From Paraflavitalea soli (GTDB taxonomy: Bacteria > Bacteroidota > Bacteroidia > Chitinophagales > Chitinophagaceae), in assembly GCF_003555545.1 (NCBI RefSeq), contig NZ_CP032157.1, forward strand, positions 7,630,546 to 7,694,545: DNA of 64,000 bases, in the 5' to 3' direction. Shown piece by piece: positions 2,743 through 62,624 of the stretch. Below the pieces are notes generated by a model. The model was given only the letters and a program-made list of their open reading frames with translations. It had not been told where the DNA came from and made no database searches. Position 1 is the first letter of the stretch, and every line of letters begins with the position of its first letter. Both the position numbers and the translations under genes were made by a program.

Positions 2743-3297
2743 ATGAGAGAACAATGCAAACTCTTGTACGAAAAGATGTTGGCAGAAATGGAGTCCTGCA
2801 GGCAACAGAGTCTAACCGAAAAAGAGCAAATTGAATGTGCCTTCCGGACTTGTGAAATGAACTGGAAAAAGCTACAAGCCCTTCTACACACCTACCGGTT
2901 CCATAGCGAATCCGAAGAAGCCTGGTTCTTCAAAACCATCAAACCTCAATTTACCGGCCTCATTGAATATTATGCCCTCGTATATAAAGCCGCCTTATTT
3001 CTCCCGGACGACGATCAGCACGATATTTATAAGTTTTGGCAAAATGAACTGCAACTGGCCAGACGCTTCTTTACAGAGCATGAATCTTTCTATAACTATT
3101 ATAAAGGCGGAATGACCGAAATGGATACCATCTATTTTGTACGCGCCAATAACGATCCTACCATCCTGCCTGCTTCAAAAGCTTATGATATTGCACCCGA
3201 GGCTACCACCTCCCACGACCACCTGGTGGCCTCTATTATTGCCCGTGAACAATACATGGAATATGTGAACCGGCAAATGCAGCGGATCAACAATTAA
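2743..3297 (+). CDS. RteC-like protein, short form
   Basis: The 184-residue protein resembles the N-terminal part of RteC, known from Bacteroides conjugative elements as a regulator of excision genes. The best-matching stretch is at about residues 55-90: FFKTIKP, then GLIEYYALVYKA and LFLPDDD. Family members I know are about 280 residues, so this one lacks the usual C-terminal third; it ends cleanly in a stop and no extension is visible downstream in any frame. The protein is mostly helical and has no signal peptide. RteC-like genes are also found outside mobile elements in Chitinophagaceae, and no mobilisation gene is nearby. Possible sigma70-like hexamers lie at 2696-2701 and 2720-2725. Family moderately sure, function open. 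Confidence 0.65.
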   Translation: MREQCKLLYEKMLAEMESCRQQSLTEKEQIECAFRTCEMNWKKLQALLHTYRFHSESEEAWFFKTIKPQFTGLIEYYALVYKAALFLPDDDQHDIYKFWQNELQLARRFFTEHESFYNYYKGGMTEMDTIYFVRANNDPTILPASKAYDIAPEATTSHDHLVASIIAREQYMEYVNRQMQRINN

Positions 3298-3459
3298 TGT
3301 CGCCACGCTGATCATAGTGTAGATCGATTTAACGTCTAAATAATACATTATCAGCAACTTCATTTGTTCAATCCATTTTTATTCGTGTATTTCGTGCACC
3401 CAATAGGGGTAAGGATTCTGCCAGTTGTCATATAATAAAGCGCAATTGGCAGAAGCAGT

Positions 3460-3490: not shown

Positions 3491-4063
3491 ATGGCAGTTA
3501 ACGATACGGGCAGCATTCAGTCGCGCACTGAAAGCGGAACTACAGCTTTTGAAGATGTTTTTAAATCGCATTTTAAGAACCTGCACGCGTATGCCTGTAC
3601 CATTGTAAAAGACGATATCATGGCCGAAGAAATGGTGCAGAATGTGTTTTATAAGATCTGGGAACGTAAAGCACACCTCACCATTCAAACCTCCTTAACC
3701 GCTTACCTCTACCGCGCTGTTTATCATGAAAGCCTGAACTACATCAAGCACCTGAAGGTGAAATCGGCCTATCAGTCCTTTGCTACAGCGCGCATGAATC
3801 AAAATACAGATAATGCAGAAAAGAAAGTATTGCTGGGGGAACTGGAAGGCCGTTTGCGTACTGCCCTGCAGGAATTACCGGAACAATGTCGTACCATATT
3901 CCAGATGAGCAGGTTTGAAGAGCTAAAGTACCAGGAAATAGCCGATCGGTTGGGACTATCTATCAAGACCGTAGAAAACCAAATGGGCAAGGCGCTGAAA
4001 CTAATGCGTTTGAAGCTGATCGAATTTTTACCCTTATTGATCCTGTCCTTACTAAACCTGTAA
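3491..4063 (+). CDS. ECF-type RNA polymerase sigma factor
   Basis: The 190-residue protein has sigma region 2 ('FEDVFKSHFKNLHAYA' to 'EEMVQNVFYKIWERK') in its first half and region 4 ('LPEQCRTIFQMSRFEELKYQEIADRLGLSIKTVENQM') near the end. It directs RNA polymerase to a small set of promoters when released by its anti-sigma partner, the FecR-type protein that starts 12 bases after this stop. I chose the ATG at 3491; the frame extends back to a TTG at 3425. A short hydrophobic tail (EFLPLLILSLLNL) ends the protein, a feature seen in several Bacteroidota ECF factors next to FecR. It is the first gene of a sigma/anti-sigma/STN operon (to 6962). Confidence 0.92.
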   Translation: MAVNDTGSIQSRTESGTTAFEDVFKSHFKNLHAYACTIVKDDIMAEEMVQNVFYKIWERKAHLTIQTSLTAYLYRAVYHESLNYIKHLKVKSAYQSFATARMNQNTDNAEKKVLLGELEGRLRTALQELPEQCRTIFQMSRFEELKYQEIADRLGLSIKTVENQMGKALKLMRLKLIEFLPLLILSLLNL

Positions 4064-4074
4064 ACCAGAAAACT

Positions 4075-5067
4075 TTGAAAGAACATGTACACGATATAAA
4101 TGATGACCTGCTGGTAAAATACCTGCTGCAGGAAACCACGCCGGGCGAAAGCCGGCAGGTGGAAGCCTGGATAGCAGCAGGGGCAGCCAACCAGCAGTAC
4201 TTTGAGCACTTTAAGCTGATATGGGATAAAAGCAGGGTGCTGGCTGCTCAAAGTACGGTAGATGAAGAAGGGGCGTGGCACCGTTTTCAACAGCGGGTAA
4301 ACAATGGGCGAGCTATGGGATCGCAGGGTGTGGTACGTTCTTTCAACCGCCGGCTGTATCCCTGGCGGGTAGCTGCCGCGGTTATCATCACCGGCGCGCT
4401 GATAGCCATGATCTATTTCTTTTCAGGCCGTGGAGGTACCGATACGCCGGTTACCCTGGCAACGGTAAATGCCAGTCAGGTGGATACCTTGCCCGATGGC
4501 TCCGTGATCACGCTCAACAGGCATTCATCGCTTAGTTATGCCGGCGCCTACAATGAGAAAAACAGAACGGTTGAACTGAAAGGGGAGGCATTCTTTAGTG
4601 TGGCGCCCAATAAAAAGAAACCATTCATCATACATGTTAATGGTATTACCGTTACCGTAACAGGCACCTCTTTCAATATCAAGACCACCGGTACCAAAAC
4701 CGAAGTGATCGTTGAGACAGGTACCGTACAGGTAAGCAACAGTAAGCAGACCGTTGCCCTCACGCCCAAAGAAAAGATCACTGTAAGCCATCCGGACTCC
4801 ACGCTTGCCAAAGAAGAGGTAACGGACCAGCTTTACAAGTATTATCGTGATAAGACCTTTGTATGTGATCACACCCCCTTGTGGAAATTGGTGCAGGTAC
4901 TCAATGAAGCCTATGATGTGAATATTGTCATTGAATCCAAAGAGAAGAAACAGCTTCAATGGACCACCACTTTGCATAATGAACCTCTTGATCATATTCT
5001 TGATCTTATTTCCAAAACATTTGATATGACCGTTACTCCTAAAGATTCTCTGATCATATTGAAATAA
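4075..5067 (+). CDS. FecR-family anti-sigma factor
   Basis: The 330-residue protein has a cytoplasmic N-terminus of about 95 residues, one membrane span (about 96-118, 'RVAAAVIITGALIAMIYFF'), a periplasmic FecR domain (about 140-235) and a C-terminal DUF4974 domain (about 255-330, ending in 'KDSLIILK'). In this family the N-terminus holds the ECF sigma factor and the periplasmic part receives a signal from the STN domain of an outer-membrane protein. The start is a TTG, because no ATG in frame precedes residue 81. It sits between the sigma gene and the STN-repeat protein, with gaps of 11 and 20 bases, so the three are almost certainly one operon. Confidence 0.9.
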   Translation: MKEHVHDINDDLLVKYLLQETTPGESRQVEAWIAAGAANQQYFEHFKLIWDKSRVLAAQSTVDEEGAWHRFQQRVNNGRAMGSQGVVRSFNRRLYPWRVAAAVIITGALIAMIYFFSGRGGTDTPVTLATVNASQVDTLPDGSVITLNRHSSLSYAGAYNEKNRTVELKGEAFFSVAPNKKKPFIIHVNGITVTVTGTSFNIKTTGTKTEVIVETGTVQVSNSKQTVALTPKEKITVSHPDSTLAKEEVTDQLYKYYRDKTFVCDHTPLWKLVQVLNEAYDVNIVIESKEKKQLQWTTTLHNEPLDHILDLISKTFDMTVTPKDSLIILK

Positions 5068-5087
5068 TTCTACTCAGAAAGTTAGTT

Positions 5088-6962
5088 ATGAAGCAGTCAG
5101 CAGGATTGGTAAGAGCAGTCTTACTTTCAACTCTTTTATTATTTTCTTTAGCGGCATCGGCGCAGAGTGTATTGGGCAGAACCGTTTCCATTGATGTATC
5201 ACTCCAGCAACTGGACCAGGTATTGGAGATATTAAGCAACAAGGGTAATTTCTATTTCTCTTACAATAGCAATATCATCAAAAGAGACAGCCTTGTTACC
5301 TTGAAAGTATACAATAAGACCGTGAAGCAGGTGCTGGACCTCTTGTTTGCCGAAGGTTATGAGTATCGGGAGAGTGGTAATTATATTATCCTGCGTAAAG
5401 CACCCATTAAGCTATCGGTGGTCACCACCCATACGGCAAGTGATGAAAAGATATATTTTGTAAGTGGTTATATTCTCGATGATCAAACGGGGGAGACCAT
5501 CAGCAATGCCAGTATCTATGAAAAGAACCAGCTGGCCTCTGCTATCTCCAACAAAGAGGGCTACTTTAAACTTAAACTGAAGAGCCGGTACGATAAGGCG
5601 GCCCTGACGGTGAGTAAGGACCTGTATGAAGACACGACCATTATAATTCAACCCAAATACAACCAGCAGCTTTCCATCGCTATCATGCCCGTGGAGATAT
5701 CTGATAAGACCATCACCATTACACCCTACACATTTGATGCACCCGACTCTATAGTGATCGCAGTACGCAAAGCCGATAGTACCCATTGGCTGTATACTTA
5801 CCGGAAGACCGATTCGGCCATGGTAGAAAAAACAAAAGCAGGACAATGGTTCTTGTCTGCCTGGCAGAAGGCGCAGACGATCAACCTGAAGAAGTTTTTT
5901 GTGATGCGGCCCTACCAGCTTTCCCTGTTGCCGGGATTAAGCACCAATGGTCCGCTTAACAGCCAGGTCATTAACCATATTTCATTAAATATATGGGGCG
6001 GCTATTCGGGCGGCGTGAAAGGAGTAGAACTGGCAGGCTGGTTCAATATCGACAAAAAGGATGTAAAGTGGGTGCAGGCCGCAGGATGGTTTAATGTGGT
6101 GGGTGGCCAGGTGGATGGTGTACAACTGGCAGGTATACATAATACAGTGATGGATAGTGTAACCGGTGTGCAGGCAGCCGGTATTTCCAATTTTGTGAAG
6201 CGACAGTTTGTGGGGGCCCAGCTAAGTGGCATATATAACCATGTGGGCGGGAGTATGAATGGCCTGCAGGCTGCAGGCATTGGCAACTATGCAAATAACA
6301 ATACTACCGGTGCACAGCTCGCCGGTATTTTGAATGTAAACCGTCGCCGGATGAATGGCGCCCAGATTGCGGGGATATTGAACGTGAATTTCCAGGAAGT
6401 AAAGGGGGCACAGATTGCCGGGGTGATCAACTATACCAAAAAACTATCAGGGGTGCAGATCGGCCTTATCAATATTGCGGATACTTCTGATGGGTATAGT
6501 ATTGGCCTGATCAATATCATATTCAAGGGATACCACAAGTTGTCGCTGTATGGCAATGAAGTGTTTCCATTAAATGCCGCCTTTAAAACAGGTAACTCAA
6601 AGTTGTACAGTATTTTACTGGCAGGAGTCGAACCTACCAAAGATGATAAAGCCTATACTTTTGGTTATGGCCTGGGGCGTGAATTTTACCTGAATAAACG
6701 TTGGGGCGCGAATGCCGAAATATCAACACAGCAGGTTTACCTGGGCAGTTGGGACAATATCAATGTGCTCAACCGGCTGGAAATGCACTTGCACTTTAAG
6801 CTCAATAAATACTTCTCCCTCTTTATGGGGCCGTCCGTATCCTTGTACTATTCTGATCAAAAGGAAAAGATCGAAGGGTTCAAGCAGAACATCCGATCTT
6901 TATCTTCCGGTGAGCATGTAAAGATCTGGTCAGGCTTTACGGCTGGTATCAATATATTCTAA
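5088..6962 (+). CDS. STN-domain outer-membrane protein with 16-residue repeats
   Basis: The 624-residue protein starts with a signal peptide (ending near 'AASAQS'), then an STN (secretin/TonB N-terminal short) domain at about 30-105, and a carboxypeptidase-regulatory-like fold at about 120-205. A linker follows, then an array of 16-residue repeats from residue 310 to about 470 with the pattern xxG(V/A)Q(L/A/I)AGxxN. The last 150 residues alternate like a small beta barrel and end in Phe, as outer-membrane proteins do. STN domains of outer-membrane transducers pass signals to FecR. What is unusual is that there is no TonB plug and no 22-strand barrel, so this is not a SusC-type receptor. The repeats recall LA_2272-type surface repeats; that likeness is from memory. 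It probably senses something at the surface and controls the sigma factor at 3491. Confidence 0.8.
   Translation: MKQSAGLVRAVLLSTLLLFSLAASAQSVLGRTVSIDVSLQQLDQVLEILSNKGNFYFSYNSNIIKRDSLVTLKVYNKTVKQVLDLLFAEGYEYRESGNYIILRKAPIKLSVVTTHTASDEKIYFVSGYILDDQTGETISNASIYEKNQLASAISNKEGYFKLKLKSRYDKAALTVSKDLYEDTTIIIQPKYNQQLSIAIMPVEISDKTITITPYTFDAPDSIVIAVRKADSTHWLYTYRKTDSAMVEKTKAGQWFLSAWQKAQTINLKKFFVMRPYQLSLLPGLSTNGPLNSQVINHISLNIWGGYSGGVKGVELAGWFNIDKKDVKWVQAAGWFNVVGGQVDGVQLAGIHNTVMDSVTGVQAAGISNFVKRQFVGAQLSGIYNHVGGSMNGLQAAGIGNYANNNTTGAQLAGILNVNRRRMNGAQIAGILNVNFQEVKGAQIAGVINYTKKLSGVQIGLINIADTSDGYSIGLINIIFKGYHKLSLYGNEVFPLNAAFKTGNSKLYSILLAGVEPTKDDKAYTFGYGLGREFYLNKRWGANAEISTQQVYLGSWDNINVLNRLEMHLHFKLNKYFSLFMGPSVSLYYSDQKEKIEGFKQNIRSLSSGEHVKIWSGFTAGINIF
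6015..6494 (+). repeat. Coding repeat array, 48 bp per unit
   Basis: Eight units of exactly 48 bp (16 residues) run from 6015 to 6398, followed by a 15-residue unit and degenerate copies. In each unit the G, Q, G and N positions are nearly fixed (for example GVQLAGIHN, GVQAAGISN, GAQLAGILN). The DNA copies have diverged, so the array is old and not a recent slippage product. Confidence 0.85.
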
Positions 6963-62434: not shown

Positions 62435-62624
62435 GGTGGTGTTTTTTTGTGGCACAAAAATGCTTCACTGCTCCGCTTCCCGGAAGCCGCGCTTAACGGA
62501 TACCTTGTTTGGGTTAATGGAAATACAGGTTGTCTTAAAAAAAAGTCTTCTTAACACTTGATTATTTACCTTGCTGGTTTGAACCCACATTCCTTCGTAT
62601 CTTGTCGCCTCACAAATCAACCAT

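Follow-up and report, generated by a model that had tools for sequence, protein, structure and literature searches.

In textbook cell-surface signaling, a TonB-dependent receptor is required that both transports and signals; the STN domain of the receptor touches the anti-sigma factor FecR and controls its proteolysis. Das1/Dma1 of B. thetaiotaomicron is reportedly a dual membrane-spanning anti-sigma system, in which the anti-sigma factor itself crosses both membranes. In the classical systems, the receptor itself signals (PMC9249621, PMC11637429), and the STN-FecR contact is already present in the uninduced state, where it protects the anti-sigma factor (PMC11637429). SusC-like receptors with an STN domain occur in polysaccharide loci controlled by ECF sigma and anti-sigma factors, and in these receptors an NTE precedes STN (PMC7782687).

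The locus analyzed here lies in a 64,000-nucleotide stretch of the Paraflavitalea soli genome, referred to below as the window (Table 1), and encodes an ECF sigma factor, a FecR protein, and an STN-bearing outer membrane protein built on a small barrel. A unit that keeps STN, FecR, and the sigma factor without a transporter separates transport from signaling; therefore, it can be asked what an outer-membrane-to-sigma signal minimally needs. In the open-access papers searched, no STN protein other than a TonB receptor was found to be described as a partner of FecR.

Table 1. Features of the sigma-FecR-STN locus and of the predicted regulon; coordinates are window positions unless another frame is given
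Feature	Coordinates	Strand	Basis or remark
Window	NZ_CP032157.1 7,630,546-7,694,545	forward	64,000 nt; Paraflavitalea soli, GCF_003555545.1
Predicted sigma-factor promoter/operator TAGGGGTAaggattctgccaGTTGTCATA	3404..3432	+	58 nt upstream of sigma ATG; conservation in the four nearest relatives, motif counts
ECF sigma factor, 190 aa	3491..4063	+	TIGR02985/Sigma70_r2 + Sigma70_r4_2
FecR anti-sigma factor, 330 aa, FecR_C (STN-like) periplasmic end	4075..5067	+	PF04773 + PF16344
STN outer membrane protein, 624 aa, N-terminal signal peptide	5088..6962	+	Domain profiles
STN domain, residues 57-105	5256..5402	+	PF07660, 31.0 bits (cut-off 28.4)
Carboxypeptidase-regulatory-like domain, residues 125-199	5460..5684	+	PF13715, 33.9 bits, above cut-off
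Solenoid cap hairpin, residues 272-283 paired with 294-301	5901..5990	+	Coevolution 5.07
Beta-solenoid, 16 residues per turn, residues about 294-478	5967..6521	+	Periodicity, AlphaFold, coevolution
Eight-stranded outer membrane barrel, residues 482-623, C-terminal F624	6531..6959	+	AF2 pLDDT 94, coevolution
Motif site, window's genome	6,141,166		Ahead of receptor gene, GIN gene next
Exact motif	L296 10089-10116 = G000 4,763,088-4,763,115	-	~130 nt ahead of 196-aa OMP_b-brl_2 barrel gene

The sigma-FecR-STN unit

A sequence-only reading of this DNA had described positions 3491-6962 as an ECF/FecR signaling unit with a non-TonB STN protein, and the three genes were indeed found there, with their domains above the cut-offs. 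The sigma gene product scores 167 bits against TIGR02985 (cut-off, 126), and both PF04773 and PF16344 exceed their cut-offs in the FecR product. A domain profile search gave no match to a barrel domain in FecR; the barrel is the product of a separate gene. The genome comprises 8.44 Mb in one contig, and the third gene has its closest named relatives in Niastella, Paraflavitalea, and Pseudobacter. Immediately 5' of the predicted promoter lies an RteC-domain gene (PF09357, 100.6 bits; window positions 2743-3297, + strand), which is retained in the three closest relatives (L031-L033) and was not seen adjoining other loci.

The third gene keeps both the STN and the carboxypeptidase-like domain, as that reading had proposed; the latter was matched in 33/33 relatives of the 624-residue protein and the former in 30 of these. 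Domain profile searches gave no match to the plug (PF07715) in the protein or its 33 relatives and no match to the TonB-receptor barrel (PF00593) in the protein itself. The replacement of plug and large barrel by a 16-residue repeat array and a small barrel was likewise borne out: sequence identity between repeats reaches 0.35 at a lag of 16 and 0.36 at a lag of 32, compared with a maximum of 0.15 in 2000 shuffling trials, and an eight-stranded barrel follows the array. The LA_2272 repeat model NF047436 is matched with 26.0 bits over the whole protein (cut-off, 25), and the match to the VC2662 family NF047437, an equivalog model, stays at 32.7 bits, short of the 140-bit cut-off. In a scan of its own genome, the 624-residue protein is the only one below TonB-receptor size with an above-cut-off STN match; the remaining matches fall in frames of 880-1240 aa, which is TonB-receptor size, plus two weak ones in frames of ~380 aa. 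At a separate locus (L182 6432-7679, - strand), a 416-aa protein conserved within its genus carries a few LA_2272-like C-terminal turns, with no Pfam match and an end that lacks the 8-strand barrel.

The three-gene order is widely retained. In a first set, all 48 loci keep the order sigma, FecR, STN gene, some entries being one gene from two collections. After distant families were added and the STN-solenoid-barrel proteins were deduplicated, 102 unique relatives with enough upstream sequence remained, of which 97 have sigma and FecR immediately ahead of the STN gene on its strand; of the other five, FecR alone precedes the STN gene in 2, and both genes are missing upstream in 3. Thus, the STN gene is not separated from sigma and FecR in most relatives, and the survey supports a unit of the FecI/FecR type whose dedicated STN protein is not a TonB receptor and which, judging from these sequences, is conserved across Chitinophagaceae and other Bacteroidota families. 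The STN-solenoid-barrel genes without an upstream sigma gene (L144, L132, L282, L119, and L253), three of which also lack FecR, are possibly orphan sensors or have relocated partners. In a FastTree tree, in which some sequences may be incomplete, STN-bearing and STN-less solenoid-barrel proteins interchange 13-18 times, which suggests that the STN head is often lost or exchanged; it is, as far as these sequences go, not always kept.

Fold and orientation of the solenoid-barrel protein

AlphaFold models the full 624-residue protein with a mean pLDDT of 78.6 and residues 265-624, for which 67 aligned sequences were used, with a pLDDT of 94.2 and a pTM of 0.77. In the latter model, strands of 7 and 4 residues recur in each turn, every 16 residues, and are followed by long strands. 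How the strands pair was then examined by mean-field coevolution, for which 203 sequences (Neff, 175) were used. The top coevolving pairs join residues i and i+16 inside the repeats, as expected from the in-register stacking of a solenoid. The eight ring-neighbor strand pairs (strands 482-490 to 609-624) score 3.13-5.93, and no other pair within the ring exceeds 2.79. Of the 2520 ring orders, the up-down order 12345678 has the best score, by a small margin over the next (31.4 versus 30.1). The highest score outside the barrel belongs to the hairpin that caps the solenoid and is not joined to the barrel. Structure prediction had been suggested as a check for a plug or a 22-strand barrel; neither is present, and AF2 and coevolution together give a closed 8-strand barrel and a solenoid. 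Foldseek searches of the PDB gave matches to small barrels and to the carboxypeptidase-like domain but none to the protein overall. Two other topologies were considered, namely, an 8-strand barrel with residues 272-281 as strand 1 and the solenoid outside, and a 10-strand barrel including residues 294-301; both were dropped in view of the coevolving pairs 272-283/294-301 and 482-490/611-623.

These pairings bear on the side of the membrane on which the solenoid lies. Even-stranded outer membrane barrels have both ends inside, and since the solenoid precedes barrel strand 1, it should be a periplasmic stalk, not a surface array, if the modeled topology is right. The sequence-only reading had pictured a dedicated surface sensor, a model under which the repeat array would be exposed and bind the ligand. 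The array exists, and the NCBI name for the repeat is "surface repeat"; however, coevolution places the solenoid before strand 1 and couples its last turns, chiefly through residues 502-507, more with the barrel rim that bears the C terminus, the periplasmic side, than with the opposite rim (p = 0.03), so that the array is not supported as surface material and an exposed, ligand-binding array appears very unlikely. The four outward loops of the barrel are short, of about 5, 5, 7, and 21 residues. Among relatives, lengths vary by whole 16-residue turns, as would suit a stalk whose length can be adjusted.

Predicted promoter motif and regulon

Alignment of the sequences upstream of the sigma gene in the window and its three closest relatives showed that two boxes, AGGGGTAA and GTTGTC, are fixed and separated by 11 nt, within the motif TAGGGGTA-N12-GTTGTCnTA. 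Since TTG 3425, farther upstream, falls inside the predicted -10 box, ATG 3491 is the favored start of the sigma gene. In 1.51 Mb of related loci, 87 sites were found with at most one mismatch, and the unspecified base preceding AGGGG is T in all 87; in the same loci, the reversed pattern and seven control spacers (8-10 and 12-15) gave 0 matches. Of these sites, 84 lie directly ahead of genes for the sigma factor (31), a TonB-dependent receptor (20), an STN-less paralogue (19), a GIN protein (10), or FecR (4), and 3 are ahead of others. Even with 2 mismatches allowed, the motif is missing from about half of the sigma genes, and 8/96 gene-body control stretches contain such a copy. The boxes were not found in the Bacteroidota transcriptome papers searched. 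From its position and conservation, we infer that the motif is the promoter of the sigma factor encoded at 3491-4063. It is improbable that another regulator binds it and that the STN protein is merely one co-regulated surface protein: with its pair of boxes at a single spacing, the downstream one of the GTC type, the motif resembles an ECF promoter, and it also stands ahead of this very sigma gene and occurs in genomes along with the system. Elsewhere in the window, a two-mismatch copy (62510-62537, + strand) precedes the gene at L301 1629-2906 and is probably due to chance.

In relatives, further genes often follow the unit: one for a copy of the solenoid-barrel protein without STN, one for a TonB-dependent receptor of ~790 aa that also lacks STN, and one for a head-GIN (DUF2807) protein; the receptor, with CarboxypepD_reg and Plug domains, and the DUF2807 protein are the recurrent neighbors. 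The lineage of the window has none of the three at the sigma locus. In its genome, the 16-base pattern occurs with at most one mismatch at only three sites (0.19 expected from a uniform-base estimate): ahead of the sigma gene, at 4,763,088, and at 6,141,166. The second of these makes the 196-aa OMP_b-brl_2 protein a possible further member of the regulon. With a looser pattern, control matches were as many as the extra sites in this genome, the match count at 1 mismatch being close to that of the control; therefore, a single genome is not decisive, and the evidential weight is placed on location and multi-genome comparison. In the window's genome, in three congeneric genomes (G164, G482, and G086), and in G002, the receptor gene is remote from the sigma locus but still carries the motif, and the receptor belongs to the same subfamily throughout; in G002, an unlinked STN-less paralogue on another contig also carries the motif. 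Across 197 genomes of the family, the exact motif is present in 21, of which 20 encode the STN protein, compared with 74/197 overall (p = 7e-9, kinship not corrected), and control patterns gave 0 matches. This comparison provides the strongest new evidence. One receptor that is nearer to the neighbor family (L180 5108-7600, + strand; 37% identity with the L036 receptor) has no motif within two mismatches and adjoins an apparent response-regulator gene.

From the shared motif, the surface genes that the system probably controls can be told, a separate transporter among them. With a motif this fixed, the regulon can be predicted in other genomes and tested with a single reporter, and uncharacterized families (solenoid-barrel proteins, head-GIN proteins, and the receptor subfamily) gain a common regulatory context. 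One P. gingivalis member of the head-GIN family is adhesin-like (PMC10949514), and the predicted regulon of receptor, head-GIN protein, and barrels is one that concerns the cell surface. The earlier view of a dedicated sensor that signals without transport holds in one respect, the sensor having no transport domain, and falls short in another, the predicted regulon containing a TonB-dependent receptor; transport seems to be not absent but separated from sensing.

What the sensor perceives could be specified in two ways, each a narrower form of the mechanism favored below. In the first, a classical system would be cut in two: the signal would be the ligand of the STN-less receptor in the regulon, and the barrel protein would bind the loaded receptor in the membrane and relay its state to FecR. 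That receptor is among the two commonest shared neighbors and is preceded by the motif in cis or in trans, and in classical systems signaling runs through the receptor itself (PMC9249621, PMC11637429); however, the receptor and sigma genes are unlinked in the window's lineage, and the flank analyzed for some relatives has no receptor. Such a relay is a plausible conjecture on which we would not yet rely. In the second, somewhat doubtful form, barrel and stalk would report the state of outer membrane assembly, lipid, or peptidoglycan and not a ligand from outside; the regulon, with its adhesin-like GIN protein, barrels, and receptor, would remodel the surface. The short outside loops and the large share of the protein predicted to face the periplasm agree with this form, and the STN-less version in the regulon would suit negative feedback by competition, but no stress genes were seen among the motif targets.

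Proposed mechanism and comparison with known systems

The locus probably represents FecI/FecR-type cell-surface signaling in which the TonB-dependent transducer is replaced by a non-transporting outer membrane protein, sensor and transporter being separate. The 8-stranded barrel would anchor the sensor in the outer membrane, with the beta-solenoid stalk and the carboxypeptidase-like domain extending into the periplasm, where the N-terminal STN domain would meet the STN-like end of FecR. A signal perceived by the barrel, or by a partner held in the membrane, would alter the STN-FecR contact; FecR would then be processed, presumably by proteolysis, and the ECF sigma factor would transcribe the genes behind the motif, that is, its own operon, the STN-less TonB-dependent receptor, the head-GIN protein, and, in many relatives, the STN-less sensor paralogue. 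Domains, gene order, barrel and solenoid topology, motif, and target genes were obtained by sequence analysis, and the nature of the signal is conjectured. Inter-protein coevolution between STN and FecR_C was not above that of shuffled pairings; by analogy, the classical STN-FecR chain with the barrel protein as transducer would be the most economical reading. A wider formulation, offered tentatively as a rather unlikely generalization, is that across Bacteroidota a non-transporting 8-strand barrel on a periplasmic solenoid of variable length, uncoupled from TonB, reports the state of the envelope or outer membrane through STN and FecR and controls a small regulon of surface genes, one of them for an STN-less copy of the sensor that acts as a decoy.

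The proposed system resembles FecA/FecR/FecI of E. coli and FoxA/FoxR of P. aeruginosa in that an ECF sigma factor, a FecR protein with an STN-like C-terminal domain, and an outer membrane protein with an N-terminal STN domain form one unit. Two traits of a FecI/FecR system were found, namely, an ECF sigma gene beside FecR with a periplasmic C-terminal domain and an STN outer membrane protein in the unit (97/102). Of the traits of a TonB-dependent transducer, the sensor has the N-terminal STN domain and lacks the plug and the 22-strand barrel; unlike FecA and FoxA, it has no transport domain, and in the predicted regulon the transporter is a protein of its own, which lacks STN. With STN-bearing SusC-like receptors (PMC7782687), it shares the combination of STN and the PF13715 extension in one Bacteroidota protein; however, STN here precedes PF13715, whereas the NTE precedes STN in those receptors (PMC7782687), the C-terminal part is a solenoid with an 8-strand barrel, and no SusD partner was noted among the recurrent neighbors. 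The repeat region is like that of the LA_2272 repeat and VC2662 proteins in matching both models (NF047436 and NF047437), but these curated models cover the repeat or whole short proteins, and their names imply no link to STN. As in Das1/Dma1, the outer membrane of a member of the Bacteroidota would be coupled to an ECF sigma factor without TonB; unlike in that system, the anti-sigma factor and the outer membrane barrel are separate polypeptides, which would meet through STN. As far as sequence comparison can tell, the locus functions like cell-surface signaling, its sigma and FecR genes place it in the FecI/FecR kind, and the part that appears new is the outer membrane component, which departs from TonB-dependent transducers in two defining respects.
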